A stretch of DNA of 24,811 bases, from IMG/VR virus record IMGVR_UViG_3300034682_000288, positions 1-24,811 of that record, one strand, 5' to 3'. The notes beneath the pieces were generated by a model. The model saw nothing but the letters and a program-made list of their open reading frames with translations, searched no databases and was not told where the DNA came from. The stretch comes from a virus. Within the stretch, counting starts at the first letter, position 1. Each line of letters opens with the position of its first letter. A program made the translations under genes and the position numbers. Shown piece by piece: positions 4,073-21,019 of this stretch.

Positions 4073-4370
4073 CCAGCAGTACGCCGCTATCAGCCGCGCC
4101 GACGCCGCCAAACGGATCATGACCGACCCGATGGTGGTCGACGCGCTGAAGACTATCGAAGACGGCATCACCGAGGCATGGAAGGACCTGCCGACCCGCG
4201 ACACCGAGGGCCGGGAGCACCTGCACCGCCTGCTGCAGGCGAAGCGCCGCTTCGAGTCGATCTTCCAACTCGTTCTCCAGGAGGGTGAGCTGGCCAGCGC
4301 CGAGCTGCGCGCCGAGGAAGAACGCAAGAGCTTCATGACCCGCATAAAGGAACGTGTGAATGGCAACTAA
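4065..4370 (+). CDS. Small phage protein between portal and scaffold, unknown function
   Basis: The 101-aa product is highly charged and predicted mostly helical, with no membrane segment or signal peptide. It starts inside the end of the portal gene (8-bp overlap) behind an AGGAG Shine-Dalgarno sequence and so is translationally coupled to it. I do not recognise a domain. A segment with EGREHLHRLLQAKRRFE suggests a short amphipathic helix. Its place between portal and scaffold suggests a role in head assembly, but that is inference from position only. Confidence 0.75.
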   Translation: MNDQQYAAISRADAAKRIMTDPMVVDALKTIEDGITEAWKDLPTRDTEGREHLHRLLQAKRRFESIFQLVLQEGELASAELRAEEERKSFMTRIKERVNGN

Positions 4371-4575
4371 GAAGGCAACCACGCCCGAGCAGACCACCGT
4401 CGACCTCGAGGCATTCATCGCCCAGCACGAGCGCGCTGCGCAGGCCGCCGGCCTGGTCGTGACCGCGATCAGCTACCCCGGCGCCACGCCGCGGCTGCAC
4501 CCGGGCGTGTACTCGGGCTTCCCCATCACCACAGGCGAGCTGTCCGCCACGTACAGCGACGGCAGCACGCACTGA
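4360..4575 (+). CDS. Small phage protein, unknown function
   Basis: The product is 71 aa. It overlaps the previous gene by 11 bp and has a good AAAGGA ribosome binding site, so it is likely real and coupled. The N-terminal part is helical and charged; the C-terminal part is rich in G, P, S and T and probably extended. No family is recognised and no membrane segment is seen. It is the last gene before a Rho-independent terminator at 4632, closing the packaging/portal transcription segment. Confidence 0.65.
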   Translation: MATKKATTPEQTTVDLEAFIAQHERAAQAAGLVVTAISYPGATPRLHPGVYSGFPITTGELSATYSDGSTH

Positions 4576-4631
4576 ACCACCCGGGCATGTCGCGCGCCCC
4601 TGAGCGCGACCTGAAAAAAGACCAACCCTCT

Positions 4632-4660
4632 GGGCCCGCCGTGCGCGGGCTCTTTGTTTT
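4632..4660 (+). terminator. Rho-independent terminator after the terminase-portal segment
   Basis: An 8-bp GC-rich stem (4632-4639 with 4645-4652, one G-T wobble) with a 5-nt loop is followed by TTTGTTTT. It separates the packaging genes from the scaffold-capsid genes and may tune the ratio of the two groups. Confidence 0.75.
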
Positions 4661-4689
4661 GGGAGTCACATTCTTCTGAAGGATGAGCA

Positions 4690-5637
4690 ATGGACCAAGA
4701 GCAGCAACCCATCACCAGCATCGACCAGCTCGCGGCCGCCCTCGAGGCGGACGATTCGCAGGACCACCAGTATCCCGACAACGCCCAACCCAACGCGGAG
4801 GCGCAAAACGGCGATCCTGATGGCCAGGCCGAGTTGGAGGGCGACCAGCAGCAACCCGTCGAGGGTGAAGGCGATCAACCGGCCAGCGCGCCGGAATCGC
4901 TGGACGACACCGTTGTGAGCTGGGAAACCGCGAGCGGTGAAAAATTCGAGGTTCCCGTCGCCGAGATGAAGCTCGGCTACATGCGCGAGCAGGACTACCG
5001 TCACAAGACGCAGACCTTCGCGCAGGAGCGGGAACAGACGGTCCAGCACATCCAGCAGCAGTACCAGGCGGCCGAGACGTTCGCGGCGGACCTGGGCCAG
5101 TTGCATGCCGTCAATGCGCAGATTGCAGCGCTCGAGCAGGCGATCCCCACGATCGACCGCCAGGGCGACCCACTCGGCTACATGGACGTCATGAACCACC
5201 TGCAGCAACTGCGCGAGAACCGCGCCGGCATCACCGGCCGCGTGCAGCAGGTGCAGCAACAGCAGCAGACTCAGCAGCAACAGCAGTTCCAGCAGGCGCA
5301 GCAGCGCATGGTGCAGGAGCTGCAGACCTCGATCCCTGGCTTCAACCAGGAACTGGTCGGGAAGATGAACGCGACGGCCCAGGGCTACGGCTTCACCCAG
5401 GAAGAGCTGAGCCGCATCACCGACCCGCGCTTTGTCCGTCTGGTGCACGACGCCATGCAGCACAAGACGCTGCAGGCCAAGGCGCCGGCCGCGGTCAACA
5501 AGGTCAAGACGGCGCCGGTCAAGCCGGCCAAGCAGTCGTCGACGCCGACGTCCACAGATCTGGAAATCCAGGTCAAGAAGTTCAAAAGCAACAAGTCGCT
5601 CGGCACTTTCGCCGCGCTCCTCGAAAAAACTCTGTAA
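4690..5637 (+). CDS. Capsid scaffolding protein
   Basis: The 315-aa product should guide prohead assembly and leave before DNA packaging. The first 75 residues are acidic and disordered. Around 90-105 the motif GYMREQDYRHKTQ matches a motif I know from phage head-assembly/scaffold proteins (G-Y-x-R-x-x-D-Y-x-x-K-T-Q). A helical centre follows, with a glutamine-rich tract at about 186-206. The C-terminal tail (about 265-315) is basic, rich in K, P and A, and fits a coat-binding segment. It lies directly upstream of the major capsid gene, the usual place for a scaffold, and has an AAGGA ribosome binding site. Confidence 0.82.
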   Translation: MDQEQQPITSIDQLAAALEADDSQDHQYPDNAQPNAEAQNGDPDGQAELEGDQQQPVEGEGDQPASAPESLDDTVVSWETASGEKFEVPVAEMKLGYMREQDYRHKTQTFAQEREQTVQHIQQQYQAAETFAADLGQLHAVNAQIAALEQAIPTIDRQGDPLGYMDVMNHLQQLRENRAGITGRVQQVQQQQQTQQQQQFQQAQQRMVQELQTSIPGFNQELVGKMNATAQGYGFTQEELSRITDPRFVRLVHDAMQHKTLQAKAPAAVNKVKTAPVKPAKQSSTPTSTDLEIQVKKFKSNKSLGTFAALLEKTL

Positions 5638-5646
5638 GGAAAAATC

Positions 5647-6582
5647 ATGGCACAACTCGCCAATGCAATGGCAACCTTCAACGCCGTCGGTCTGCGCGAA
5701 TCGCTGGCCAACGAGATCTTCAACATCAGCCCGGAAGAAACCCCGTTCCTGTCGGCCATCGGCAAGGAAAAGGCTTCCGCGCAGTACGAAGAATGGCAGA
5801 CCGACGCCCTGGCGGCCGCCAGCAACAACAAGGTCGAGCAGGGTAACGAAGCGACCTTCGTCGCGATCACCCCGACCGCGCGCGTCGGCAACCGCATGCA
5901 GATCTCGGAAAAGACCTACGCGGTCACCGGCTCGCAGGAGGCGGTATCGAAGGCCGGCCGCAAGTCCGAGGTCGCCTACCAGGACGCGAAGAAGATGGTC
6001 GAGCTCAAGCGCGACATCGAATTTGCCGCACTGCAGAACACGACCGCGATCGCGGCCGCTGCCGGCGTCGCTGGCCAGGCGCGTGGTGTCGCCGGCTGGC
6101 TGCAGACCAACAACAGCCTGGGCGCTACCGGTGTGGCGCCGAACCCGGTCACCAACGTGGCACCGACCGACGGCACCGCGCGCGCGCTCACCGAGCAGAT
6201 GCTCAAGGACGTGGCCAAGGCGGCCTGGGACCAGGGCGGCAACCCTTCCCTGCTGTTCGTGCCATCGGCCCAGCGCGCGGCGGTGTCGGCCTTCACCGGC
6301 GGCGCCACCAAGTTCGACAAGACCGAAGACAAGACGCTGAACGCGACCGTCGAGGTTTACGTGGGCGACTTCGGCCGCTACTCGATCATCAACAGCCGCT
6401 ACCAGCGCTCGCGCGACATCTTCCTGCTGGACCCGGAGCTGTGGTCGCTGATGACCCTGCGTCCGATGAAGGGCGAGGACCTGGCCAAGACCGGCGACAG
6501 CAAGAAGCGCATGATCAACACCGAATGGACCCTCAAGAGCAAGAACGAGGCCGGTTCGGCGGCTATCCGCGACCTGTCGTAA
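5647..6582 (+). CDS. Major capsid protein, SU10-like (former DUF5309)
   Basis: This 311-aa protein should be the HK97-fold shell subunit. The N-terminal region with PEETPFLSAIG (about 31-41) and the segment around SEKTYAVTGSQE are typical of the SU10 major capsid protein family. The C-terminal part has YSIINSRYQ and a phage-capsid-like end with DPELW and LRPM. The length fits the family. It has a strong AAGGA ribosome binding site overlapping the scaffold stop, as expected for the most abundant protein, and a strong terminator follows it. Confidence 0.9.
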   Translation: MAQLANAMATFNAVGLRESLANEIFNISPEETPFLSAIGKEKASAQYEEWQTDALAAASNNKVEQGNEATFVAITPTARVGNRMQISEKTYAVTGSQEAVSKAGRKSEVAYQDAKKMVELKRDIEFAALQNTTAIAAAAGVAGQARGVAGWLQTNNSLGATGVAPNPVTNVAPTDGTARALTEQMLKDVAKAAWDQGGNPSLLFVPSAQRAAVSAFTGGATKFDKTEDKTLNATVEVYVGDFGRYSIINSRYQRSRDIFLLDPELWSLMTLRPMKGEDLAKTGDSKKRMINTEWTLKSKNEAGSAAIRDLS

Positions 6583-6604
6583 TCCCTCAACCGCAGTAAC
6601 ACGG

Positions 6605-6633
6605 AGCCGCCGGGGCAACTCGGCGGCTTTTTT
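6605..6633 (+). terminator. Rho-independent terminator after the capsid gene
   Basis: A stem of 9-10 bp (AGCCGCCG pairing with CGGCGGCT, extended by a G-T and a G-C pair) closes on a GCAA tetraloop and is followed by six T. The start codon of the next gene lies two bases downstream of the U-tract, so the two signals are physically joined. Confidence 0.85.
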
Positions 6634-6634
6634 C

Positions 6635-6952
6635 ATGGCTAAACGACTTCTCTCCATCAACGGCGCCACCGCCACCTACCTCCACGACGAGCAGGACGGC
6701 CGCCAGGCGATTGAAACCGTGGCCGACGTGTCGCGCGAGCTTGAACGCGCCAAGGCGCTGCACAACGCCGGCCGCACGCGCACCGGCATGGGTGACCGCC
6801 ACGTCGCGTCGATCCCGGTCACCGTGCTGGATGCCTGGGCCCGCCGCATCGGCAAGTGCTTCCAGGACGTGATGCAGGACCCGCGCCTCATGGACCGCTT
6901 CCTGGCCGATCCCGACCACCGCTATTTCGTAATCGACACCGCTTCCATCTGA
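6635..6952 (+). CDS. Conserved small phage protein, unknown function
   Basis: The 105-aa product has no membrane segment. It resembles a family I have seen in podovirus-like genomes near the capsid gene, with the pattern D-E-x-x-G followed by I-E-T-V-x-D-V and a downstream GDRHVASIPVTVL (about 53-65), ending with LADPDHRYF. The function is not known to me; a role in head completion is only a positional guess. It starts straight after the U-tract of the capsid terminator and has no Shine-Dalgarno sequence between hairpin and ATG. A later start would delete the conserved N-terminus, so 6635 is preferred. Confidence 0.75.
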   Translation: MAKRLLSINGATATYLHDEQDGRQAIETVADVSRELERAKALHNAGRTRTGMGDRHVASIPVTVLDAWARRIGKCFQDVMQDPRLMDRFLADPDHRYFVIDTASI

Positions 6953-6959
6953 GGCCCGC

Positions 6960-8804
6960 ATGCTGAAATTCGAAGAAAACCTCGCGTCCCGCGTCAGCGG
7001 CGCGCTGCAGCCCATGCTGGGCGTCCAGGTCACTGTGACCGCGTCGAACGGCCTGTTGGCCACGCTCTACGCCGACGACGAGTCGACCGTGCTGGGCAAC
7101 CCGCTGACCACCGACACGAACGGCTACTTCGGATTCAAGGCGGCCAACGGCGAGTACACCTTGACCTTCTCTGGCGCACAGATCGAGAACTCCACTCGCA
7201 AGGTCGAACTGTATGACGCCGACGACGATCCACCACTGACGCTGGCACAGGCTGCGGTTCCGACGGCAGCGAGCCGAATCGGTTTTCAACAGGCGGGTGC
7301 AGAAACAGTAGCGCGCACCGTCGAAAACAAGCTGCAAGAGATGCTGAGCATCAAGGACTGCGGCGCAAAAGGCGACGGCACAGACGACCGAGATGCTTTT
7401 TTGGCCGCTGATGCAGATGCAGTCGGGCCGGTAATCCTTCCTCCTGGAGAATACCGTGTTTCTTCGCAACCGGCGCTGAGCAAGCCGCTGCTGAATTTCG
7501 GCGCAACTGTTACGCTGGACGCTGGGTCGTGGCTGCCGCGCTTCGAGCACCACATGGGCCTGCTCTACGATTTCACCAAAAAAGTCAATACATCCGGTAC
7601 GTATCTAGATACGCCATCCTCCTACACCTATCTGAAGGGGCTGGGCTGTTCATACGCCAAACTTGTCAACGCGGCTGGTTACCAACAGAATTTCGGTTCT
7701 GACAGCGGCGGCCGGACGCTCATCCCGATCTATTACGCCGAAGCGAATCACGGCGGGATGGGTGATGTGAATGCCTTTCAAGCTTCGATCAATGTTACGC
7801 CGCACACGAACAAGGATGCGGTGACAAAATGGGTCGGCCAGAACAGCGCCACCGGGCATAGCGCGCAGGTCAGCGCTGGCGGCGCGCAGGTGAACCTCTA
7901 CGGCATGGAGCACCACCTCTACGATGAGGGTTTCGCAGATGTGTCTGCTCTTGGCATAGTGCTGAACTTCCGTCGCACCGGCGTTGACGCGAAAGCTTAT
8001 TCGACGCCGTGGATTGGCGCTCGCTTCCAGGCGTTCGGAACAACCGGTGCAGACTCAGCCTTCCAACTGGCCGGCGACTGGAAGGTGGGGCTTGACCTAT
8101 CCGACGCCGATCTGACCGCTGCTAAGTGCGCCATTGCACTCAAGGCGTCTGATCGTGTGTACTGGAACGTCGACCCGATCTCAACTATCAATGATCAGTG
8201 GTTCGCAGGCGACAACGGAGCAACCCTTGGCGATGTGTATAGCGTGTTCGAGAGTGGTCTGCTCAAGGATATTGTCGGCGGCATATCCATCCTTCAGAGA
8301 TCATCGACCGCCGTGCAAGTACGACCAGGTGTCGATAGCCAGTTCTCGACTCGCATCTTCGGTTCGGCGGCCAACCCATTCGCCGGCATAGGGCAGATCG
8401 GAGCGATTTCCTATTTTGGCGCAGCAAGTCAGGGAACCGATAACACCACGCTCGCTCTTTATGTTGCACAGAACGGTGCCGAGGTAAATGCGCTCGTCAT
8501 CCCCTCAACCGGTGACATTCAGAGTGCGGTCGGCAACTGTGCAGTCATGACAGCTGGCAAGGGCTTGCGGGTAAAGGAAGGGGTGAACGCAAAACAGGGC
8601 GTCGCTACATTGTCAGGCGGCACTATCACTGTGCCCAACGTCAGCGTCACGGCAAACAGTCGAATCTTCCTTACTGCTCAGGATAACAACACGGTCGGCG
8701 TCCCGCGTGTATCAGCTCGCGTTGCCGGCACCAGCTTCACCATTACGTCAAGCAATGCGACCGACAGCGGCGTGGTTGCTTACGAAATTTTCGAACCTGC
8801 ATAA
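6960..8804 (+). CDS. Tailspike / tail fibre with pectate-lyase-like beta-helix
   Basis: The 614-aa product probably binds or cleaves the host surface polysaccharide. Residues about 1-90 form a virion-attachment beta-sandwich with LATLYADDES and PLTTDTNGYFGF, a module shared by many phage fibres. A helical linker (about 105-130) leads to KDCGAKGDGTDD (132-143), the entry motif of pectate-lyase-like beta-helices (Pectate_lyase_3 family). The body (about 145-540) is variable. The last 65 residues (RVSARVAGTSFTITSS near the end) are a beta-rich cap seen in many tail fibres. The body is richer in A/T than its neighbours. The GAGG ribosome binding site is 5 nt from ATG. Confidence 0.82.
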   Translation: MLKFEENLASRVSGALQPMLGVQVTVTASNGLLATLYADDESTVLGNPLTTDTNGYFGFKAANGEYTLTFSGAQIENSTRKVELYDADDDPPLTLAQAAVPTAASRIGFQQAGAETVARTVENKLQEMLSIKDCGAKGDGTDDRDAFLAADADAVGPVILPPGEYRVSSQPALSKPLLNFGATVTLDAGSWLPRFEHHMGLLYDFTKKVNTSGTYLDTPSSYTYLKGLGCSYAKLVNAAGYQQNFGSDSGGRTLIPIYYAEANHGGMGDVNAFQASINVTPHTNKDAVTKWVGQNSATGHSAQVSAGGAQVNLYGMEHHLYDEGFADVSALGIVLNFRRTGVDAKAYSTPWIGARFQAFGTTGADSAFQLAGDWKVGLDLSDADLTAAKCAIALKASDRVYWNVDPISTINDQWFAGDNGATLGDVYSVFESGLLKDIVGGISILQRSSTAVQVRPGVDSQFSTRIFGSAANPFAGIGQIGAISYFGAASQGTDNTTLALYVAQNGAEVNALVIPSTGDIQSAVGNCAVMTAGKGLRVKEGVNAKQGVATLSGGTITVPNVSVTANSRIFLTAQDNNTVGVPRVSARVAGTSFTITSSNATDSGVVAYEIFEPA

Positions 8805-8806
8805 CC

Positions 8807-9442
8807 ATGACCATCATCGTTACCGCCATCGGCACCAACGCGAGCCGGGACTACGCCTGGCTGCTCGACGTGGTGCCGCGCCGGTTGCATCGCGACGACC
8901 TGGGCGACGACCTGCCCGATTTCGTGATGCTGGCCGAGAAGCGCATCAACGGCGACCTGCGCGCGCAGCTGCAGGACGCGATCGCCACGCTTTCATCGAC
9001 CGAGGGCGCGAACTTCATCGCGCTTCCGGCACCGATCCTGTCGATCAAGGCGCTGTCGATCCCCGGCGTCGGGCCGGTCGACTATATGTCGCCTGCGCAG
9101 TTCAACACGCAATACGCGCGCGACCAGGGCGGCGGCCAGCCGCGCCACTACACGCAGATCGGCTCCGCGCTGTACCTGGGGCCGGCGCCGCAGGGTGCCG
9201 TGTCGTTGTCGGCGGTGGTGCGGTCAACCGTGCCCGCGCTGGCCGACTCGGCCGGCAGCAACTGGCTGATCGAGCAGCACCCCGAGGTGTATCTGGCCGC
9301 CACAATGTGCGAGGCACTGCTGCACATCCGCGACTACCCGAATCACCAGGTGTGGGAAGCCAAGTACCTGGCGGCCATTGCGGCCCTCGATAACAACGAC
9401 TGGGAGAACGCGAGCACGCTTTCGCTGCGCGCGCCCACCTGA
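8807..9442 (+). CDS. Head-tail adaptor protein (SU10-adaptor-like)
   Basis: The 211-aa product should attach below the portal ring and link it to the tail. The N-terminal half, with LPDFVMLAEKRINGDL, is a helical region as found in adaptors of the gp6/SU10 type; the middle forms beta strands (SALYLGPAP); the C-terminus is helical, with LIEQHPEVYLAATMCEALL, a pattern I recognise from phage adaptor proteins. It matches the SU10-like capsid gene upstream. It starts 2 nt after the tailspike stop with no clear Shine-Dalgarno, so it is probably coupled. Confidence 0.7.
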   Translation: MTIIVTAIGTNASRDYAWLLDVVPRRLHRDDLGDDLPDFVMLAEKRINGDLRAQLQDAIATLSSTEGANFIALPAPILSIKALSIPGVGPVDYMSPAQFNTQYARDQGGGQPRHYTQIGSALYLGPAPQGAVSLSAVVRSTVPALADSAGSNWLIEQHPEVYLAATMCEALLHIRDYPNHQVWEAKYLAAIAALDNNDWENASTLSLRAPT

Positions 9443-9459
9443 CCCAAGAAGGACAGACC

Positions 9460-10317
9460 ATGGCAGTTGAAAACGTTACCTACGTGGGCGACCTGAACCC
9501 GGCCACGCCGACCGGCGCCGAGCCGAAGAGCGAAGGCGACGACCACATCCGGAACATCAAGAAGGGGCTGCGCCAGAGCTTCGCGGGCTTCCTCGGCGCC
9601 ATCCTGGTCACCGGCGCCGACGGTGGCGCAGCGAATGCATACACGCTGACGCCGCCGCAGCCGCTCCTGGCCTACTCGACCAAGATGCTGGCCGTGTTCG
9701 TCCCGACCGCGAACAACACCGGCGCCACTACGCTCAATATCTCGGGCTTGGGCGCCAAGGAGGTGGTTTCCGTCGCCGGCGTGCCGCTGGTGGCCGGCGA
9801 CCTCACGGCAGGCCGCTTCTATACCGCCTTCTACGACGGCACGCGTTTCCGCCTCGACAACGTCACCCAGAACTATGTCGACCAGCTTGTGATCGCCGGC
9901 ACGGTGCCGGGCGTCAACGACCCGTCCAACAATGGCAAGGTGTTTGGCAGCGTGGCCGGTGTCGGCACCTGGATTGGCCTGGACGGCCGTGGCGACCCCG
10001 TGTTCGACAACGGCGACGTCGGCAGCGGTACGGCGGTCATCGACCACATGAAGGGCGACGGCCAGAAGATCAAGGCTGTCGGCCAGCATACGCTGACCGC
10101 TACCGGTTTTCCTGCTGGCCGCCTTTCCGGCGTGCTGCTCGAGCTGACCAACTACGGCACGATCGCGCTGACCACCACCGGCATCACCTGGATCAAGAGC
10201 GACGGCACCGAGACGACGAACTTCTCGCAGTCGGGCATCACCTTCCCTGCCGCCGGCCGTGGCCGCGTCGTGCTGTATTCCTACGGCGACGGCGTCGTCT
10301 ACGGGAAGCAGGCATGA
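9460..10317 (+). CDS. Tail fibre-like structural protein
   Basis: The 285-aa product begins with a short module, TPTGAEPKSEGDDHIRNIKK (about 16-35), that occurs at the N-terminus of many phage tail-fibre-like proteins and probably anchors them to the tail. The rest is Gly/Thr-rich and beta-strand-rich (for example ATTLNISGLGAKEV), fitting a repeated beta fold. No enzymatic motif is seen. It has an AAGGA ribosome binding site and overlaps the next gene by 4 bp (ATGA), so the two products may act together, for example as shaft and tip. Confidence 0.65.
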   Translation: MAVENVTYVGDLNPATPTGAEPKSEGDDHIRNIKKGLRQSFAGFLGAILVTGADGGAANAYTLTPPQPLLAYSTKMLAVFVPTANNTGATTLNISGLGAKEVVSVAGVPLVAGDLTAGRFYTAFYDGTRFRLDNVTQNYVDQLVIAGTVPGVNDPSNNGKVFGSVAGVGTWIGLDGRGDPVFDNGDVGSGTAVIDHMKGDGQKIKAVGQHTLTATGFPAGRLSGVLLELTNYGTIALTTTGITWIKSDGTETTNFSQSGITFPAAGRGRVVLYSYGDGVVYGKQA

Positions 10318-10844
10318 AGGCCTGGCTGAAGGCGCTCGCGTTCAGCCGGCGCGCGCAGCTGGTGACGAGAGAGTTCACGGCAAACGGCACGCTAGTGATA
10401 CCGGCTGGCGTCTCGTCGGCAAACATCTCCGGCTATGGGGCGCGCGGGAAGAATGCGGAGCCAGGTAGAGCAATCATCCGAGAGAACAGGACGATCTACG
10501 CCACCCGCAGGGATAACGGCGTGCGTGAGGTCGTGTTCAGCGATCGATACACCGTCAGCTATAACGGCCAGACGGCGTATTGCGAGCCAGTAAATAACAC
10601 CCCGAGCGACCCAACGTACTCATCAAATCAAACGTGCTACGCGTACGATTTATACAGTGAAACACCTCCACAGCCAGCGACCCAGGGAGCGTCCGCTACC
10701 GGCCTCGGCAAGACCTTCCCGGGCAGCCTTGGCAACGTTCCGCAAACTGTGACGTCGTTCCCCAACGTGCCGGTCACCGGCGGCGCCAGCTACAACATCG
10801 TGGTCCCGGCCGACGGCCTGGTCACGGTCACCTACTACCTGTGA
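10314..10844 (+). CDS. Tail fibre tip-like protein, unknown
   Basis: The 176-aa product starts with a basic helical segment and then a beta-rich domain opening with FTANGTLVIPAGVSS (about 21-35), a phrase common in glycine-rich phage tail proteins. The middle (about 40-125) is polar, tyrosine-rich and has two cysteines; the end (GGASYNIVVPADGLVTV) returns to the same beta fold as the start. The layout looks like a conserved frame holding a variable insert, and the insert DNA is less GC-rich than its flanks. It overlaps the preceding gene as ATGA. Confidence 0.6.
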   Translation: MKAWLKALAFSRRAQLVTREFTANGTLVIPAGVSSANISGYGARGKNAEPGRAIIRENRTIYATRRDNGVREVVFSDRYTVSYNGQTAYCEPVNNTPSDPTYSSNQTCYAYDLYSETPPQPATQGASATGLGKTFPGSLGNVPQTVTSFPNVPVTGGASYNIVVPADGLVTVTYYL

Positions 10845-10851
10845 GGGCCGC

Positions 10852-12417
10852 ATGGCCAACCCAATCAAATTCGACAACGTCGGCGCTCTCGGCGTGGTCC
10901 GCGATATCGCGGCCGCCGAGCTGCCGCAGGGTGCCTGGTCGGACGCGCGCAACATCCGCTTCCTGGATGGTGCGGCGCTGCAGTTCCTCGGCCACGGCCA
11001 GGTGTATCTGACGCCGCCGGCGCCGCCGCAGTACCTACTGCAGGCGAACGTCGCCGGCTCGCGTTACTGGCTGTATGCGACGGCCGGCAAGCAGTATGCC
11101 GCGTCCAACGCCTCGGGCGCGTCGGTGCACACGGACATCAGCCACGCCACCCCGCGGGCCGGCGCCGTCAACCGCTGGTCGGGCTGTGTCTTCGGCGGCA
11201 TTCCGGTGCTGAACGCCGCCGACGGCAAGCCACCGATGTATTGGGACACCGACCTGACGCACAAGTTTCTGGACCTACCGGCCTGGCCGGCGGCGACATC
11301 GTGCAAGGTGCTGCGCCAGTACAAGAACATGCTGATCGCCCTGGGCATCACGCGCGGCGGCGCGCGGCTGGACTACATGGTGAAGTGGTCGAGCCTGGCG
11401 GTACCGGGCGCCCTGCCCTCCACGTGGAATGAGGCCGACTCCACCCAGGATGCTGGCGAGTTCGACCTAGCCGAGGGCCAAGACCCGATCGTGGACGGCC
11501 TGGGCCTGAAGGACAGCCTGATCGTCTACAAGGAGTCGAGCACATACGCGATCGACTATATCGGCGGCCAGTTCATCCTGAAGCCCCGCAAGGTCTCCGG
11601 AATGAGCGGGCTGCTGAACATGAATTGCGCGGTTGAGTTCGAAGCCGGCTTCGGCGCCATGCACTTCGCGGTGACGGGCTCCGACATCGTGCAGCATGAT
11701 GGTTTCTCGGCCAGGTCGGTGCTGGACAAGAAGGCGCGCCGCTTCTTCTTCCAGAACATCGACGTCGCGCATAAGGACAAGGTCTTCGTCTTCAAGAATC
11801 CGTTCCTGAACGAGATCCTGGTGGCCTACCCCTCGATCGGCGCCACCTGGTGCGACATGGCGCTGGTCTACAACTACGTTGACGGCACGGTCAGCTTCCG
11901 CAGCCTGCCGAATGTGACGCATGCGGCATACGGCCCGGTCGACAACTCGCTGGCCGGCAACTGGAACCAGGACGATGCGCCCTGGGATACCGACCTGACC
12001 GCGTGGAACGGGCCCGACTTCACGCCCGATACCGCGCGCGTGATGATGGGCAGCGCCGACACGAAGCTGTTCCTGCTCGACGCGTCGACGTCGTTCGACG
12101 GCGCGCTGCCGGACGCCTATCTCGAGCGGCGCGGGCTGTCGTTCGGCGCGCCGGAGCGCGTCAAGATTGCATCGGGCGTGCGGCCGCGCATCACCGGCAA
12201 CCGCGGCGGCACGGTGATCGTTCGGCTGGGCGCCGCCGACGGACCCGACGACGAGCCGAAGTGGGCGAAGCCGATCACCTTCACGATCGGCACAACGCTG
12301 AAGCTCGACCGGTTCGTCTCAGGCCGCTACCTGGCCATTCGGTTCGAAACCGGCACCGCTTTCAGCTGGAAGCTGGACGGTTTCGCCCTTCTGGTAGATG
12401 ACGCTGGAGAATTCTAG
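10852..12417 (+). CDS. Probable tail hub / packaged-DNA stabilisation protein (P22 gp10-like)
   Basis: The 521-aa product has no signal peptide and is rich in beta strands with repeated aromatic-Gly-Asp turns, fitting a propeller-like tail hub. The N-terminal phrase GALGVVRDIAAAELPQGAWS and the following NIRFLDG are familiar from podovirus proteins placed between adaptor and ejection genes. P22 gp10 plugs the portal-adaptor channel and carries tailspikes; a matching role here is inferred from fold, size and position. The GAGGG ribosome binding site is well placed. The next gene starts immediately after the stop codon. Confidence 0.6.
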   Translation: MANPIKFDNVGALGVVRDIAAAELPQGAWSDARNIRFLDGAALQFLGHGQVYLTPPAPPQYLLQANVAGSRYWLYATAGKQYAASNASGASVHTDISHATPRAGAVNRWSGCVFGGIPVLNAADGKPPMYWDTDLTHKFLDLPAWPAATSCKVLRQYKNMLIALGITRGGARLDYMVKWSSLAVPGALPSTWNEADSTQDAGEFDLAEGQDPIVDGLGLKDSLIVYKESSTYAIDYIGGQFILKPRKVSGMSGLLNMNCAVEFEAGFGAMHFAVTGSDIVQHDGFSARSVLDKKARRFFFQNIDVAHKDKVFVFKNPFLNEILVAYPSIGATWCDMALVYNYVDGTVSFRSLPNVTHAAYGPVDNSLAGNWNQDDAPWDTDLTAWNGPDFTPDTARVMMGSADTKLFLLDASTSFDGALPDAYLERRGLSFGAPERVKIASGVRPRITGNRGGTVIVRLGAADGPDDEPKWAKPITFTIGTTLKLDRFVSGRYLAIRFETGTAFSWKLDGFALLVDDAGEF

Positions 12418-12687
12418 ATGCGCCCGACAAGCACAAACGCAATCAGCTACCAGCCCGGCGACCCGCCGGCCGATCCGGCGCAGCTGCAGCGCTTCCTGCG
12501 CGAGGAGCAGCTGAAGTGGAAGGCGGCAATCGACGCGCTGGCCGACGGCTTCCTGCCGGTGGTCTACGCGCCGCCGGCGAAGCCGCGCGACGGGATGCTG
12601 CGCAACGCCGACGGCGTCCAGTGGGATCCCGGTAGCGGCGCCGGTTTGTACCGCTACGGAAATAACACCTGGAATCACCTCGGCTGA
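12418..12687 (+). CDS. Small virion-associated phage protein, unknown
   Basis: The 89-aa product begins directly after the stop of the hub gene (TAGATG) with GGAG upstream, so the two are co-translated. The N-terminal half has a helix with LQRFLREEQLKW. The C-terminal half, PRDGMLRNADGVQWDPGSG followed by a Y-R-Y pattern, is a short beta module seen in several phage tail proteins. Its exact role is unknown; as a partner of the hub it may sit on the tail. Confidence 0.65.
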   Translation: MRPTSTNAISYQPGDPPADPAQLQRFLREEQLKWKAAIDALADGFLPVVYAPPAKPRDGMLRNADGVQWDPGSGAGLYRYGNNTWNHLG

Positions 12688-12719
12688 CACCCAGCCACAT
12701 CACCATTGAAAGGAACATC

Positions 12720-14027
12720 ATGGGCTTTTTGAAAGACCTCGTGGGCATCGCCGCGCCCATCGCCGGCACCATCATCGGCGGTCCGGTCGGCGGCGCCATC
12801 GGTGGCGCGCTCGGCGGCCTGGCGAGCGGCAGCGGCCAGCCAAAGTCGCACACCACCACCCAGCAGCAACAGCTTGACCCGCGTATCGAGCAGATGCTGT
12901 TCGGGAATGGTGGCGACAACAAGGGCCTACTGTCACAGTACCAAGGCATGCTGAATCAGCCCCGATCGGACGCCGCCACCGGCTTTGCGAACGCCAACGC
13001 GCAGTACCTCAACAACAACGGTGCCGCCGACTTGGCCGCCACGCGTGGGGCCGCGTACCAGGCCATGCAAGGCAATACTGCACCGACGATGAACGCGGCC
13101 AGTGCCGCCGGCGGATATGCTTCGCTTCCTGCCTATGCGGTGGGCGAGAAGGTGAATGCGCCGAGCCAGAACAACATCGACTTGTCGGGCTCGTACAACA
13201 GCCTCATCAACGGTGCGCCGGGTGCAAACCCGTACCTCACCGGCGCCATCCAAAAAGGAATCAACCAGTCGTCGAACGCTTTCGGCAACATGGTGACGGA
13301 TGCCAAGGCGGCCACCCAGGACGTGCTGGGCAGCATCCGCGGAAACTCCGTGCTGGCTGGCCAGTTCGGCGGTTCGCGCCAGGGCATCGCCGAGGGTAAG
13401 GCGATCGACAGTATGAACACCAACCTGGCGCGCGCCGCTTCGCAGTTCGGCCAGAACAACACCGATGCGGCCGTCGCGGCGCAGGCCGGCGCCTACGACG
13501 CCGACCGCAATCGTCAGCTCGCCGCCACGCAAGGCCTGGGCGCGCAGCAGTACGGCGTGGCGCAGCAGGAGGCCGCGTACGCCCAACAGGCGCAGATGCA
13601 GAACGTTCAAAACTCGTTCGACGCAAGCAAGACGAATGCGAGCATGGCTCAGCAAAACAACCAGTTCAACGCAGGTCTGCAACAACAGGCCGGGCTGGCC
13701 AACCAACAAGCCCAGCTCGCGACGAACGGCCAGAATACGAGCGCAGGCCTCGCCGGCGCCGGCCTGCTTTCTGGCCTGCTCGGCAACGCATCGAACCAGG
13801 TGAACGCCAACGATAACTGGGGCCTGGGCCGCGCGCAGGGTGTGAACTCGCTGCTGGCGCCGTACCTCGGCGCGAACAGCTCGAGCAGCAGCAGCCAACC
13901 GGTCTACAGCAACTCGGTTGGTAACGCGCTGGGTGGCGCCATGATGGGCGGCCAGTTGGGCGGCCTGTTCGGCAGCGGTGGCTTTTCTTCTCTCTTCGGC
14001 CCAGGCACCATCGGCGCCGGCTTTTAA
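12720..14027 (+). CDS. Probable DNA-ejection / internal virion protein 1
   Basis: The 435-aa product begins with a glycine-rich hydrophobic stretch (about 6-38, repeated GG and GGA steps) that could insert into a membrane. A long helical region rich in A, Q and N follows (about 45-340), and the C-terminus is again Gly/Ser-rich. No enzymatic motif is visible. The composition and the place after the tail hub fit podovirus ejection proteins such as P22 gp7/gp20/gp16, which travel with the DNA and form a channel. No direct homologue is claimed. It has a good AAAGGA ribosome binding site and is first of three such genes. Confidence 0.6.
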   Translation: MGFLKDLVGIAAPIAGTIIGGPVGGAIGGALGGLASGSGQPKSHTTTQQQQLDPRIEQMLFGNGGDNKGLLSQYQGMLNQPRSDAATGFANANAQYLNNNGAADLAATRGAAYQAMQGNTAPTMNAASAAGGYASLPAYAVGEKVNAPSQNNIDLSGSYNSLINGAPGANPYLTGAIQKGINQSSNAFGNMVTDAKAATQDVLGSIRGNSVLAGQFGGSRQGIAEGKAIDSMNTNLARAASQFGQNNTDAAVAAQAGAYDADRNRQLAATQGLGAQQYGVAQQEAAYAQQAQMQNVQNSFDASKTNASMAQQNNQFNAGLQQQAGLANQQAQLATNGQNTSAGLAGAGLLSGLLGNASNQVNANDNWGLGRAQGVNSLLAPYLGANSSSSSSQPVYSNSVGNALGGAMMGGQLGGLFGSGGFSSLFGPGTIGAGF

Positions 14028-14036
14028 GGAATCGAT

Positions 14037-15350
14037 ATGGCAGGACTACTCGATATTTTCGGCGGTAGCCCGCAGGCCCAAGGCCTGCTCGCCGCGACGG
14101 CGCAGATTCTCCAGGCCTCGGGCCCGTCGTTCCGTCCGACCAGCCTTGGCCAGATCCTCGGCGGCGGGCTGCAGGCTGGCCAGGAGGCCACGCAGTTGGC
14201 GCGCGCACGCGACCTGCAGTTCCGAGGCGCCGAAGCCGACCTGGCCGCCCAGGAGCGCGCACGCGCCATGCAAGAGCAGGAGCTGGCCGCCGCGCGCAGA
14301 GCTATCCGGACACCCGGCCAGCAGGCCGCCGCCCTCCCCGGCGGGCCGACGCAGGAGAACGCTGCGCGCATTGGCGAATTCAAGAGCGAGTTCGACCCGG
14401 ATGCCTATGTCGCCGCGATGATGCAGATCAACCCGCTTCGCGCGCTGGAGATCAAGCGATCGTTGGCCAAGTCGGGGCCTGAGTTCGACACCAAGCCGCA
14501 GGTCGCAACCGATGACATGGGGAACGTGTTCCAGTACCTGGTGGCCAAGGACGGCTCTATCCGCAAGTTGGATGGCGTGAAGCCGCGGGACGAGATGAAA
14601 TTGGCCACCTTCGGCGGCCGAACCGAGGCGTACGATCCATATGCTCTGCGGGCGGGTCAAACTTTCCAGCACACTATGGCGCCCGGAGAGGCGGCAAGCA
14701 ACGCGGTGGCGCGAGCAAACCTGGGCCTCTCCCGCGAGCGATTGGAGCTCGACCGTCTGGCGATGGGGCCTGGTGGGGCCAAGGCGCCTGCTGGCTACCG
14801 CTGGAAGGCGGATGGCAGTCTCGAAGCAATCACCGGTGGCCCGGCGACGAAAGGGGCTACTGCGACTGAGGGCGAGCGTAAGGCCGCCACCTTATTGATG
14901 CGACTGCAGGGATCTGAAGCGCAGCTTGAGGAAGCATTGAAGGATGACGCGGGTGCTGCCACGCCAAACCTACTCGCGCAAGGCCTGCGCGGCGTTGGAG
15001 CGGAGTCGGCGGCCAATTCGATTCTTGGCGAAGGGCGTCAACGCGTCGAGGCGGCGCAGCTCGACATTCTCGATGCTGCCCTTACGCTCGGCACCGGCGC
15101 CGCTTACACGCGCGAGCAGCTGGAGGGCTATCGCCGTTCCTACTTCCCCCAGATCGGTGACAGCAAAAAAACGGTTGAGGAAAAGCAGGCGCGCCTGAAC
15201 AACGTAATTGACGCCGCGAGGGTTGCCGCTGGGCGTGCAGCGCCTGGCGGTGACCCACTTCCGCCGCCACAACGGAATCCAGGTGCTGCTTACTCGGACC
15301 CAGAGAAAGAGCGCCGCTATCAAGAATGGAAAAGGAGTCAAGGCAAATGA
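14037..15350 (+). CDS. Probable DNA-ejection / internal virion protein 2
   Basis: The 437-aa product starts with a short hydrophobic, Gly-rich segment (LLDIFGGSPQAQGLLAATAQ), then a long Ala/Arg/Glu/Gln-rich coiled coil (about 50-100). A globular middle and a helical C-terminal half follow, the latter with QLDILDAALTLGTGAAYTREQ, a phrase I recognise from phage proteins of ejection or DNA-transfer type. The ribosome binding site AAGGA is clear. It overlaps the following gene by 4 bp (ATGA). The function is inferred from composition and context. Confidence 0.6.
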   Translation: MAGLLDIFGGSPQAQGLLAATAQILQASGPSFRPTSLGQILGGGLQAGQEATQLARARDLQFRGAEADLAAQERARAMQEQELAAARRAIRTPGQQAAALPGGPTQENAARIGEFKSEFDPDAYVAAMMQINPLRALEIKRSLAKSGPEFDTKPQVATDDMGNVFQYLVAKDGSIRKLDGVKPRDEMKLATFGGRTEAYDPYALRAGQTFQHTMAPGEAASNAVARANLGLSRERLELDRLAMGPGGAKAPAGYRWKADGSLEAITGGPATKGATATEGERKAATLLMRLQGSEAQLEEALKDDAGAATPNLLAQGLRGVGAESAANSILGEGRQRVEAAQLDILDAALTLGTGAAYTREQLEGYRRSYFPQIGDSKKTVEEKQARLNNVIDAARVAAGRAAPGGDPLPPPQRNPGAAYSDPEKERRYQEWKRSQGK

Positions 15351-17434
15351 CCGAGCAAGAAGAATTTGAGTTTCGCGCTCGCCTGGAAGCCGAGCAGCAG
15401 TCCGGTGCAGCGCCAGCTGCTGCGCGCCGCAAGCCCTTCGGCGAAGACCTGAGCGATGCGCTGACTGATGTCCCGCGCCAGGTCGGCCTGACCGCGCGCC
15501 ACGCGCTGGAAGGTGTCGGTGATGCCTTCGATTCGTTCGTCGGCAACCCACTGCGCACGCTGGCCCGCCCGATCCTGGGCAACAAGCCGACCGCGCGCAC
15601 CGGCGCAGCAGTCGCTGACCTGGTCGGCCTGCCGCAGCCGCGCACGTCGACTGAGCGGATCGTCGGTGACGCCTCTCGGCTGGTTGCCGGTGGCGCCGGC
15701 ATGCTGGGCAGCGCGGCGAAGGCGGTACAGGCTACCTCTGGCGTGCCGCAGGCGGTAGCGCGCATCCTGGCGTCGAACCCTGGCCAGCAGCTGGGGTCGG
15801 CCGGCGCTGCGGGCCTGGCCGGCGGCTACACCCGTGAAACCGGCGGCGGCGACGGCGCGCAGCTTGTCGCCTCGCTGGCGGCCGGCGTGGCGGCGCCGGC
15901 GGCGATCGGCGGTGCGCAGCGCGCAGCGGCAGCTGTTGCCCGACACGCGCGGCCGGCGGCGCCGACGACCGAGCAGGCCCAGCAGATCAGCATTACGATC
16001 AACAACGCCCTGCAGGATTCCGGCGTCACGCTCGAGCAGCTGCCCATCCAAGTGGCACAGAGCATTCGCGACGACGTCGCCGCGGCGTACCGCACCAGCG
16101 ACCAGGTCTCTCCAGATGCGGTGCGACGCCTGGCCGACTACCGGCTCACCGGCCTGACGCCGACGGCCGCTGGCCTGACGCTGGATCCGGCCGTGGTCAC
16201 CCAGCAGCGCAACCTGGCCAAGCTGGGCGTGAACAGCAAGGACAGCACGGCGCAGTTCCTGGGGCAGACTGAAAACCGCAACAACCAACTGCTCAAGCAG
16301 GGGCTGAACAACCTAGGCGCCGGCACGGCGGATGATGCCTATGCCGGTGGCCAGCGCGTTATCGACGCCCTTGCCGCGCGTGATACCCGCGCGCGCCAGC
16401 TGATCGGCGACCGCTATGCAGAAGCGCGCGCAGCCGACGGACGTAGCGCCATGCTCGATCCGTCGGCATTCACGCAGCGCGCCAACAACTTGCTGGACGA
16501 GGCACTGCTGGGCGGGAAGCTGCCGGGTGACGTGCGCAACCTGCTGAACCGCGCAGCGACCGGAGAAATGCCGCTGACCGTCGACGTGGCTGAGCAGTTC
16601 AAGACGCGGATCGGCGAGCTGCAACGGTCGACCATCGACATGGCCGAACGAAAGGCCTTGGGCATGGTGCGTAGCGCGCTGGATGACACGCCGCTGCAGC
16701 CTGGCCAGCAGATCGGCCGGGAGGCGATCGACGCGTTCAACCGCGCCCGGGGCCTGAACCGCAGCTACATGCGGATCGTCGAGCGTACGCCGGCGCTGCA
16801 GGCCGTGCGTGATGGCGTCGAGCCGGACAAGTTTGTGCAGCAGTTCATCGTCGGCGCCGGCAGCAAATCGAATTTCATGGACGTGGCGCAGCTCAAGAGC
16901 TCGATCAAGGGCAGTCCGGACGCCATGAACGCAGTGCGCGAACAGATCACCGGGTTCCTGAAGGCGCGCGCGCTGAACGGCCAGGCCGACGAGGTGGGCA
17001 ACTTCAGCGGCGCCGCCTATACGAAGGCGCTCGACCAGATCGGCGAACGCAAGTTGCGCTTGTTTTTTAAACAGGATGAAATCAACCAGCTGAAGGCGTT
17101 GGGCCGCGTTTCGCGGTACGAGCAGTTCCAGCCGGCCGGCGCCGCCGTGAACAACTCGAACACTGCCGGCGCCCTGGGTGGCCTGGCCGAGCGGATACTG
17201 AGCCAGTCCGTCTTGTCGAAGATTCCCTTCGGTCAGGCCGCGATTGGTGAGCCGCTGCAGAACATCCAGGTGGGGTTCCAGTCGGGCCGCGCTCTGGACG
17301 TGCCGCGCACGCTGGCGGGACCCCGCCAGGCGGTACCGGCGGGCCAGCGCGGGCTGCTGCTGTCGCCGGCGGCATTCATGGACCTTGAGAGCGAGGAGGA
17401 ACGGCAGCGCCGCCTACTTTCGACGGCTCGCTAA
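15347..17434 (+). CDS. Probable DNA-ejection / internal virion protein 3 (large)
   Basis: The 695-aa product is the largest protein of the ejection group. The first 60 residues are charged; about 110-200 contains Gly/Ala-rich hydrophobic helices (for example ASLAAGVAAPAAIGGAQ) that could cross or perturb the host membrane; the remainder is helical. No transglycosylase motif was seen, although some podovirus internal proteins carry one. I chose the ATG at 15347 because AAAGGAG lies 9 nt upstream and the start overlaps the previous stop as ATGA; an in-frame ATG at 15326 lacks a ribosome binding site. It is followed by a terminator at 17523. Confidence 0.65.
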   Translation: MTEQEEFEFRARLEAEQQSGAAPAAARRKPFGEDLSDALTDVPRQVGLTARHALEGVGDAFDSFVGNPLRTLARPILGNKPTARTGAAVADLVGLPQPRTSTERIVGDASRLVAGGAGMLGSAAKAVQATSGVPQAVARILASNPGQQLGSAGAAGLAGGYTRETGGGDGAQLVASLAAGVAAPAAIGGAQRAAAAVARHARPAAPTTEQAQQISITINNALQDSGVTLEQLPIQVAQSIRDDVAAAYRTSDQVSPDAVRRLADYRLTGLTPTAAGLTLDPAVVTQQRNLAKLGVNSKDSTAQFLGQTENRNNQLLKQGLNNLGAGTADDAYAGGQRVIDALAARDTRARQLIGDRYAEARAADGRSAMLDPSAFTQRANNLLDEALLGGKLPGDVRNLLNRAATGEMPLTVDVAEQFKTRIGELQRSTIDMAERKALGMVRSALDDTPLQPGQQIGREAIDAFNRARGLNRSYMRIVERTPALQAVRDGVEPDKFVQQFIVGAGSKSNFMDVAQLKSSIKGSPDAMNAVREQITGFLKARALNGQADEVGNFSGAAYTKALDQIGERKLRLFFKQDEINQLKALGRVSRYEQFQPAGAAVNNSNTAGALGGLAERILSQSVLSKIPFGQAAIGEPLQNIQVGFQSGRALDVPRTLAGPRQAVPAGQRGLLLSPAAFMDLESEEERQRRLLSTAR

Positions 17435-17491
17435 CCAGGCGTTGATGATGAACGCGAGTGCCGCGCCCAGCTGGATCGGATCGTAGTGCAT
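17414..17491 (-). CDS. Candidate 25-aa membrane peptide, antisense to the late genes
   Basis: On the - strand an ATG at 17491 opens a 25-codon frame ending with TAG at 17414. The peptide has a polar, acidic N-terminus (MHYDPIQ), a hydrophobic stretch of about 15 residues (LGAALAFIINAWLA) and a basic end (SRRK), the layout of a single-span membrane peptide. GGGGAG lies 4 nt before the ATG, and TATAAT lies at 17521-17516. No good -35 box is visible. It overlaps the last 21 bp of the ejection gene and points away from the lysis cassette. It may be real or chance; no homologue is known to me. Confidence 0.3.
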   Translation of the reverse strand: MHYDPIQLGAALAFIINAWLASRRK

Positions 17492-17522
17492 TCGGCTCCC
17501 CAAGAAGTTTCAACAATTATAC

Positions 17523-17549
17523 GGCCACCTTCGGGTGGCCTTTTCATTT
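17523..17549 (+). terminator. Rho-independent terminator before the lysis cassette
   Basis: A perfect 7-bp stem (GGCCACC with GGTGGCC) closes on a UUCG tetraloop and is followed by TTTTCATTT. It separates the ejection genes from the holin gene, whose ribosome binding site begins just downstream. Confidence 0.8.
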
Positions 17550-17564
17550 CCTGAAAGGGTGCAT

Positions 17565-17810
17565 GTGACCACCACCACCGACCAGAACAACGCGATCGCC
17601 CTGGCCCAGCTCCAGGTCGAAGTCGCCTACATGAAGGCCGCGATCGCGCGGCTCGACGCTTCCAACCAGGAGCTCGACCAGAAGCTGGACCGCGTGCTCA
17701 ACCAGCTTGCCCAGGCGCGCGGCGGCTGGCGCACCCTGATGCTGATCGGCGGCGCTGCCGGCTCGATAGGCAGCGGCATCACCTGGCTCGTCTCCCACCT
17801 GAAAGGCTGA
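17565..17810 (+). CDS. Putative holin, single membrane span with N-terminal coiled coil
   Basis: The product is 81 aa when started at GTG 17565, which has GAAAGGG about 5 nt upstream. An in-frame ATG at 17535 lies within the terminator stem and is unlikely. Residues about 8-50 form a heptad-like coiled coil (LDASNQELDQKLDRVLNQL); residues about 55-77 are one hydrophobic, Gly-rich membrane segment; the end is basic. This layout resembles XhlA-type proteins. Since the next gene is a lysozyme without a signal peptide, a holin is needed here, and this is the only membrane protein in place. Confidence 0.65.
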   Translation: MTTTTDQNNAIALAQLQVEVAYMKAAIARLDASNQELDQKLDRVLNQLAQARGGWRTLMLIGGAAGSIGSGITWLVSHLKG

Positions 17811-17813
17811 CCC

Positions 17814-18230
17814 ATGGACCGCCAAAAACTCGAGGCGCAGCTCGTCATCGACGAAGGTCGCCGCGCGATCGCCTACGTCGATACCGTCGGCAAGATGACA
17901 GCGGGCGTCGGCCGCAACATCACCGATCGCCCCTTCTTCGACGACGAGATCGCGCTCATGCTCAAGAACGATATCCGGGAGGTCGAGAAGGACCTCGACC
18001 GCCGCCTGCCCTGGTGGCGCCAGATGACGCCCGCGCGCCAGAACGTGCTGGCCAACATGTGCTTCAACCTGGGCATTAACCGGCTGCTCGGCTTTGAGCA
18101 ATCGCTGACCCACATGCGCGCCGGCCAATACGACGCCGCGGCGCGCGAAATGCTCGACTCCCGTTGGGCCAAGCAGGTCGGCGCCCGCGCCGTGCGCCTG
18201 GCCGCCCTCATGCGCGAAGGAGAATTCTGA
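17814..18230 (+). CDS. Endolysin, T4-type lysozyme (GH24)
   Basis: The 138-aa enzyme should hydrolyse the MurNAc-GlcNAc bond of peptidoglycan. The T4 lysozyme catalytic triad is present with identical spacing: E14 (in IDEG), D23 (in YVDT) and T29 (in KMTAGVGRN). A later NMCFNLG helix (about 79-85) is also typical of the family. The enzyme is shorter than T4 lysozyme (164 aa) but typical of phage GH24 endolysins. No signal peptide or signal-anchor is seen, so release depends on the upstream holin. It has an AAAGG site upstream, and the next gene starts on its last base (TGATG). Confidence 0.93.
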   Translation: MDRQKLEAQLVIDEGRRAIAYVDTVGKMTAGVGRNITDRPFFDDEIALMLKNDIREVEKDLDRRLPWWRQMTPARQNVLANMCFNLGINRLLGFEQSLTHMRAGQYDAAAREMLDSRWAKQVGARAVRLAALMREGEF

Positions 18231-18349
18231 TGAAACGCATCCTGCTGCTCGCCGCCCTGCTCACCCTGGCCGGCTGCTCGAACCTGGCCCTGCAGTGCAG
18301 CGGCACCTATACCGGCGACGAGGTGCGCAATGGCGCCGCCGGCAAGTAA
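18230..18349 (+). CDS. Small phage lipoprotein in lysis cassette (possible outer-membrane spanin)
   Basis: The product is only 39 aa. MKRILLLAALLTLAGC is a clear lipoprotein signal peptide with lipobox LAGC and Cys16 as the lipidated residue, leaving a mature peptide of 24 residues. A strong AAGGAG site precedes the ATG, which overlaps the lysozyme stop. Rz1-type outer-membrane spanins are small lipoproteins in this place, but they are usually proline-rich; this one has no proline after the lipobox. No inner-membrane Rz partner is seen nearby. The gene is well supported as a lipoprotein; the spanin role is a guess. Confidence 0.7.
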   Translation: MKRILLLAALLTLAGCSNLALQCSGTYTGDEVRNGAAGK

Positions 18350-18728
18350 GGCCCGGTTCCTGTCGACGCTGCGCACGGATCGGGTCAGCCTGACCAGCGC
18401 CGACCGGATCCTGCTGGCGCCGCTGGCATTCTCGTCGGCGCTGCTCGATCGCCTGGTGATCGTCCCGGAAGGGTTCGTGACCGACTTCGCCAGCGTACCG
18501 CGCGCGCCGCTCACCTACTGGCTGTTCGGTGGCGTGGGCGACGAGGCCGCCGTGGTGCACGATTTCCTGTACGAACGTGGCCTGGTGCCGCGCGAGCAGG
18601 CGGATGACGTCTACCTGGAAGCGCTGGAGGCCTGCGGCGTGGCCAATTGGCGCCGGCTCGCCATGTGGGCCGCGGTGCGTGCGTTCGGCAGTTCCCGCTA
18701 TACCGGGAACGCTCCGCAGGGCGCGTGA
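18330..18728 (+). CDS. DUF1353 family phage protein
   Basis: The 132-aa product has the hallmarks of DUF1353: TDFASVPR (51-58), VHDFLY (76-81), an R-x-x-x-D-D pattern (R88, D92, D93) and a helical C-terminus ending in an A-V-R-x-F-G phrase. The family is common near phage lysis genes; I know of no established activity. The conserved His-Asp and Asp residues could bind a metal, which is inference. It starts inside the lipoprotein gene (20-bp overlap) after GAGG, and the next gene starts on its last base. Confidence 0.85.
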   Translation: MAPPASKARFLSTLRTDRVSLTSADRILLAPLAFSSALLDRLVIVPEGFVTDFASVPRAPLTYWLFGGVGDEAAVVHDFLYERGLVPREQADDVYLEALEACGVANWRRLAMWAAVRAFGSSRYTGNAPQGA

Positions 18729-18940
18729 TGGAATTCGACATCTTCGCCATCACGCCGGCTGGCGGCGGCCACGTCCTGACCGTTCAGCAAGAGCGCAAGG
18801 ACGCCGGGCCGCGGCTGGTCATCATAGCTGGTGGCGAGGTGTCGGCGCCGGCCGAGGCAATGATGGAGCGGCTGATGGGAGGACCGCTGGAAGGCGGCCA
18901 GCTCAGCGGTGCTACACTCGCCGGATGCTCGCCAAAGTAA
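18728..18940 (+). CDS. Small phage protein, unknown function
   Basis: The product is 70 aa, started at the ATG that overlaps the DUF1353 stop (TGATG). An upstream in-frame ATG at 18647 would lie inside the DUF1353 gene and is not favoured. The N-terminal half forms beta strands (FDIFAITPAGG, LVIIAGGE), the second half a helix with AEAMMERLM. No family is recognised. There is only a weak ribosome binding site, so translation is probably coupled. Confidence 0.55.
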   Translation: MEFDIFAITPAGGGHVLTVQQERKDAGPRLVIIAGGEVSAPAEAMMERLMGGPLEGGQLSGATLAGCSPK

Positions 18941-19212
18941 AGCTCCTACGCCAGCGCGGACAGCGCATGTCCGACAACGAAATCGCCCGCGCTCAGTTCG
19001 CCGAGGGCGAGCTGGTCGTGCACGGCATGGGCGGCATGATCCTGGCGGAGCTGCAGCGTCCAGGCAACCAGGTGGCCGATCCGCTGCTAGTGCTCTACGA
19101 AGCGAAGCTGACCACAATGCACGGCGTCGGCATGCTACTTAAGGGCGAGGAACGGCCGCAAGGCGACAAGGGGCCGGCGTACGTTCAGGAGTGGTCGGTG
19201 CGGCTCGGGTAG
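18925..19212 (+). CDS. Last phage gene, small protein of unknown function
   Basis: The product is 95 aa from ATG 18925, or 81 aa if the internal ATG at 18967 (MSDNEIARAQ) is used. Neither start has a good Shine-Dalgarno sequence, so the choice is open. The protein starts basic, then is mixed alpha/beta with hydrophobic strands (ELVVHGMGGMILAEL) and GVGMLLKGEERPQG. No family is recognised. A TGCTACACT sequence resembling an extended -10 box lies just before 18925. It overlaps the previous gene by 16 bp and is the last coding region before the attachment site. Confidence 0.55.
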   Translation: MLAKVKLLRQRGQRMSDNEIARAQFAEGELVVHGMGGMILAELQRPGNQVADPLLVLYEAKLTTMHGVGMLLKGEERPQGDKGPAYVQEWSVRLG

Positions 19213-19223
19213 TGACGAAAAAT

Positions 19224-19261
19224 GCTCCGCAAACGCAAGCAATGCCTTGGATTTGCGGGGC
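19224..19261. repeat. Imperfect long hairpin after the last phage gene
   Basis: GCTCCGCAAA (19224-19233) pairs with TTTGCGGGGC (19252-19261), 10 bp with one wobble. Inside, CAAG pairs with CTTG across a 2x2 internal loop. No U-tract follows, so it is not a classical terminator. It lies between the last gene and the attachment site, where recombinase arm sites could be. From 19213 to 19337 I see no supported gene. Confidence 0.5.
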
Positions 19262-19337
19262 GCAAGGTGGGCCAAAAATGGGAAATTGCGGTGCAAGAAA
19301 TGGCCGCAAAACCGCATGGTTGACACGTTTACGCTAG

Positions 19338-19347
19338 AGCTTAGAAG
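19338..19347 (-). other. Putative attachment-site core (att) in the tRNA-Arg anticodon loop
   Basis: Similarity to tRNA-Arg(UCU), read on the - strand, runs through the anticodon loop CTTCTAA and the first three bases of the 3' stem (GCT), then stops. Tyrosine recombinases often cross over in this loop. The identity may continue weakly to about 19334 (a TAG after one mismatch). The other end of the prophage is outside the window, so the core cannot be proven here. Confidence 0.5.
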
Positions 19348-19379
19348 GCTGTTGCTCTATCCAACTGAGCTAAGGGCGG
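19338..19379 (-). pseudogene. 5' half of tRNA-Arg(UCU), truncated at the anticodon loop
   Basis: Read on -, the sequence has acceptor strand CCGCCCT, TA at positions 8-9, a complete D-arm (GCTCAGTTGGATAGAGC), the 5' anticodon stem ACAGC and loop CTTCTAA with anticodon TCT. The 3' anticodon stem is only partly matched, and no variable loop, T-arm (GGTTCGA) or 3' acceptor strand AGGGCGG follows. Phage DNA begins at this point. This is the chromosome-side remnant of the tRNA gene used as integration target. It keeps its own promoter upstream. Confidence 0.75.
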
Positions 19380-19394
19380 TCTGGAAGTGGCGCT

Positions 19395-19424
19395 ACTATA
19401 AACCGCAAGTCACGCTGCTTGCAA
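19395..19424 (-). promoter_or_regulatory. Promoter of the truncated tRNA-Arg
   Basis: On -, TTGCAA (19424-19419) and TATAGT (19400-19395) are 18 bp apart, with a GC-rich discriminator after the -10 box, as in stable-RNA promoters. The start of transcription would fall near 19388, about 9 nt before the tRNA 5' end. It would now drive transcription into the end of the prophage, antisense to its last gene. Confidence 0.55.
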
Positions 19425-19526: not shown

Positions 19527-19603
19527 TGGTCGGAGTACAAGGATTCGAACCTTGGACCCCCTGGTCCCAAACCAGGTGCGCTACCGGGCTGCGCTACACT
19601 CCG
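19527..19603 (-). tRNA. tRNA-Pro(UGG), CCA encoded
   Basis: Read on -, the gene folds into a full cloverleaf. Acceptor strands CGGAGTG and TACTCCG pair over 7 bp (last pair G-T), and discriminator A is followed by an encoded CCA (19529-19527). The anticodon arm CCTGG-TTTGGGA-CCAGG has anticodon TGG. The T-arm contains GGTTCGAATCC. It has its own promoter and terminator and lies between glmM and the prophage junction. It appears intact, so this tRNA was not the integration target. Confidence 0.96.

Positions 19604-19678: not shown

Positions 19679-21019
<1,341 letters not shown>

Follow-up and report, generated by a model that had tools for sequence, protein, structure and literature searches.

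Most phages that target tRNA genes keep the host promoter in control of the rebuilt gene. In the ordinary mode of integration at the anticodon loop, the phage carries the 3′ half of the tRNA and a tyrosine integrase directs the crossover in that loop. The locus described here has the same kind of crossover, whereas the carried half and the rebuilt end are reversed. Of the 3919 islands in Islander, 159 have a displaced 5′ tRNA fragment (PMC4383910), and 5′-distal integration has been described as considerably less frequent (PMC6563490). As in our case, it is the 5′ part that these islands displace; the complete gene stands at the other end, and the element supplies the upstream half. What differs is that we are dealing with betaproteobacterial phages, that one integrase family is found in both modes, and that a promoter-like box recurs in the attP. 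A first-pass annotation of this DNA held that a host tRNA rebuilt behind a phage-borne promoter would be unusual, which agrees with the Islander count as far as rarity goes, but not if taken to mean without precedent; the prophage is a well-resolved case of a rare, already known 5′-fragment kind.

A second comparable system is tRNA-dependent lysogeny, described for actinobacteriophages (Fionnbharth and Gaia; PMC10865867). There, as here, the junction that keeps the native promoter does not restore the host tRNA, and survival of the lysogen should need the tRNA part supplied by the phage. Fionnbharth and Gaia have cores of 8–17 bp and a complete cognate phage tRNA, whereas in the relatives of the present prophage 42–43 bp are common to phage and host, and the host gene is rebuilt.

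The window, by which we mean the whole 24811-base stretch analyzed, is an IMG/VR record that ends inside the prophage of a Massilia bacterium. The right half of the prophage, with its structural and lysis genes, occupies 1..19337 on the plus strand (TerS, TerL, portal, SU10-type major capsid, tail genes, lysozyme and DUF1353, from PHROGs and Pfam matches). The last phage gene before the junction (18925..19212, plus strand) has a homologue that adjoins the attP in contig L349, and another, of 73% amino acid identity, in a prophage of genome G022. On the minus strand, 19338–19379 reads CCGCCCTTAGCTCAGTTGGATAGAGCAACAGCCTTCTAAGCT, which direct reading and location by script both identify as the initial 42 nt of tRNA-Arg, its anticodon TCT at 19345–19343. 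The minus strand then runs on across the junction at 19338/19337 as CTAGCGTAAACGTGTCAACCATGCGG, and the T-arm and 3′ acceptor strand are absent. The native-promoter end of the prophage holds a 5′ tRNA fragment rather than the complete tRNA that the ordinary 3′-half mode leaves there. A sigma70-like native promoter, TTGCAA-18-TATAGT, is predicted 5′ of this stub (19395..19424, minus strand); 1.7% of shuffles score equally high. ARAGORN called the upstream neighbor, a host tRNA-Pro(UGG) (19527..19603, minus strand), as the sole tRNA of the window, and none in the 19.3 kb of its phage part. The host gene glmM (19679..21019, minus strand), at 98–99% to Massilia arenae and M. timonae, marks the locus.

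The empty site is known from close relatives. The tRNA-Arg(UCU) gene is intact at the same place in M. timonae (L034) and M. arenae (L005), as well as in G011, G037 and G022, the last with a flank that is 96.4% identical to the window over 2.7 kb. Since these close Massilia genomes have an intact gene there and homology to prophage-free hosts begins exactly at 19338, the stub is an attachment junction, and chance as its source is excluded. The first-pass annotation had described a tRNA-Arg(UCU) cut after the anticodon loop behind a native promoter and had called for comparison with a prophage-free strain. The cut is borne out by the sequence and by ARAGORN, the promoter by a predicted match, and the comparison by a gene that is intact, not truncated, in the relatives. 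G022 also has a phage related to that of the window, which we considered as a user of the tRNA-Arg site and rejected, as it sits in tRNA-Leu(UAA).

The phage side of the junction links the window to one family of tyrosine integrases. In the attP of this family, the order is the int stop, TTTGCGGAGC repeats, a −10-like box, a 42–43 bp 5′ half of tRNA-Arg(UCU), and the right arm. Uninserted attPs holding the 5′ half are present in L349, L351–L354 and L357. In L349 the attP lies ∼650 bp after int because a second integrase-N-terminal-like stretch, perhaps a partial duplication, occurs 3′ of int (L349:7030-7300, in genome G440). The right arm of the window aligns to these attPs without gaps and in register. 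A conserved motif, GTCAACCATGCGG, adjoins the core (19312..19324, minus strand) at the same distance as in L349, L351–L354 and L357, and GTTTGCGGAGC farther out is likewise in register. The window and L349 right arms share 83 of 140 positions, against a mean of 36.7 and a maximum of 55 for dinucleotide shuffles. Five other attP arms share 61–71 of 140, in every case more than any of the 1000 shuffles made for that comparison. The G213 right arm, at 45/140 (z 1.6), is a weak match over the whole arm apart from its repeats.

The putative arm-type integrase sites of the window match those of the family as well. Only two occur in the whole 24.8 kb, one being TTTGCGGAGC at 19224..19233 (minus strand), which every related attP right arm has at this position, and the other TTTGCGGGGC at 19252..19261 (plus strand), located by sequence scan. 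A weaker arm-like site, CCGCAATTT inside GCACCGCAA (19283..19291, minus strand), is in register with GCTCCGCAA of the relatives. L349 of G440 has 22 bp of arm in common with the window. The phage in G443, which carries int and attP of the reversed-type family, is related to that of the window through TerL (69% amino acid identity), major capsid protein (54%) and portal (45%). These alignments bear on whether the junction could be what is left of an ordinary 3′-half element whose end has decayed or been rearranged, with loss of its rebuilt T-arm. Ordinary elements of that type do use the same tRNA gene, as G063 illustrates, but gapless alignment of the post-core sequence to intact attP right arms, with the repeats in register, makes this explanation very improbable.

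Both ends could be resolved in three prophages, G213 at tRNA-Arg and G271 and G281 at tRNA-Gly(CCC). In each, one end has the displaced 5′ half, and at the other int is followed by a complete tRNA composed of the phage 5′ half and the host 3′ half. G213 and the window share the exact base at which the native 5′ half breaks off; the complete tRNA of G213 directly follows the integrase gene 42 kb away and begins with 43 bp that are identical to its displaced half. The corresponding distances in G271 and G281 are 40.5 and 40.7 kb. Further family members were found by search with the G213 integrase. The int end, with a complete tRNA-Arg after int, is seen in the inserted phages L350, L285/G068 and L416. 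Of these, G068 is an int-end prophage fragment in a Massilia whose host flank is 90.7% to G022; its Int has 59% identity and its phage-borne 5′ half is identical to that of the window at 42/42 positions. G068 has no overlap with the window and may be a different phage.

These relatives also speak to the proposal that integration merely kills the gene while another UCU tRNA reads AGA, which the first-pass annotation had offered as its second option. The window by itself shows only a broken half, as this would predict. However, the relatives resolved at both ends rebuild the tRNA in 3/3 cases, and BLAST detects a single tRNA-Arg(UCU) in G022, the closest host, the next matches checked (in G022 and G037) being tRNA-Lys. 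Gene killing is unsupported, and we consider it highly unlikely. The first option of that annotation, a phage-carried 5′ half from which the gene is restored at the other end, has the best support: relatives exhibit it as resolved ends, int ends and uninserted attPs, and it extends to the present prophage by homology.

We therefore read the junction, with a probability of roughly 0.87, as the non-integrase end of a prophage whose integrase appears to use tRNA-Arg(UCU) in reverse, such that the phage would bring the 5′ half with promoter-like sequence and rebuild the gene at the int end. In this mechanism the attP would carry ∼42 bp of the tRNA 5′ half, beginning with its first base and including the anticodon loop, directly 3′ of int and behind the promoter-like sequence. 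Recombination in the common core would strand the host promoter and host 5′ half at the lysis end, where they would form a dead stub such as the window contains. At the int end, the phage promoter and 5′ half would be joined to the host 3′ half to give a complete tRNA-Arg(UCU), as is seen in the relatives. The integrase and rebuilt tRNA of the window's prophage lie outside the record, and rebuilding in this prophage is presumed from homology. The host would then rely on the phage-supplied upstream region to express its tRNA for AGA, a rare codon.

The first-pass annotation also gave the phage-borne half a promoter of its own. The 5′ half is there in the relatives; the promoter is a predicted, promoter-like element. 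In nearly all attPs, a −10-like box precedes the phage 5′ half by 7–9 nt, and the −35-like hexamers vary in quality and are poor in several. Promoter scores beat shuffles at 5% in 7/13 members, whose sequences are related so that the tests are not independent. In L350, L351, L352, L357, L285 and L363, the best score is not above shuffles at that level. The sequence upstream of the attP half is promoter-like and presumably active as a promoter; alternatively, the −10-like box may be bound by recombination proteins.

A tree of 35 integrases places nine tRNA-Arg and two tRNA-Gly reversed-type members in one cluster (93/95). Another tRNA-Gly pair lies elsewhere, and integrases assigned to the ordinary mode, at tRNA-Arg as well as at tRNA-Gly, fall among reversed-type members; for members seen at one end only, the strand on which the tRNA lies after int was used to deduce the mode. 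Having the usual and reversed modes at both tRNA genes makes this family a good set for studying the origin of the reversal. We tentatively suggest, at somewhat less than even odds, that lysogens transcribe their sole AGA-reading tRNA from a phage promoter immediately 3′ of int, by which the phage would set or regulate how much of an essential tRNA is made, and that one integrase family has also switched between 3′-half and 5′-half carriage at the same tRNA genes. A tRNA gene that is seemingly single-copy in the closest host would fall under phage-supplied upstream DNA, and the possible dependence of the host on the prophage is testable.

The same tRNA gene is used by other elements. In G072, a Duganella, a 5.3 kb element with an 11 bp core interrupts it in the anticodon loop and brings its own complete tRNA-Arg(UCU). 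This element lends some plausibility to tRNA-dependent lysogeny at this site, in which the core would be short, neither junction would rebuild the gene, and a complete phage tRNA-Arg(UCU) elsewhere in the prophage would substitute. Yet the 19.3 kb phage part of the window is free of tRNAs, and its right arm belongs to a family with a 42–43 bp 5′ half in the attP instead of a short core, so we regard this as improbable. By eye, the G072 element (L340:2400-7900, Duganella aceris) has reverse-transcriptase-like and nitrilase-like open frames, and no integrase was noticed among its larger frames.

Searches of viral contigs did not find the exact junction pattern of the window, or contigs sharing a 40-base stretch near its left end. 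Contigs with a 3′ half after phage DNA (L279, L280, L283, L287 and L289) were considered as the other end of a short-core phage of the window's kind and rejected, as the full contig G063 has an intact tRNA at the native-promoter end and a displaced 3′ half 57 kb farther, and is hence an ordinary 3′-half element. In a family sample of 393 genomes, near matches consisted of cut or duplicated tRNA genes and led to G213, G010 and G330. G010 and G330 both have the tRNA cut in its T-loop, with the upstream tRNA part supplied anew. An open frame beside the cut tRNA-Arg of G010 (L307:1703-3058) is tyrosine-recombinase-like by its C-terminal motifs. In G330 (L322; G330:C34:248130-248626), tandem ∼106-bp units, each with a promoter-like spacer and a tRNA-Arg(UCU) 5′ part ending in GTTC, precede one complete tRNA; the array looks like repeated T-loop insertions, each bringing a new upstream half. 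A degenerate tRNA-Arg(UCU)-like remnant near 8702 on the minus strand of L019 (Pseudoduganella danionis) is possibly an old attachment scar. Finally, in L088 and L091, which are relatives by lysozyme, the lysozyme gene is followed by the 3′ half of a tRNA, apparently tRNA-His from its GTG anticodon loop.
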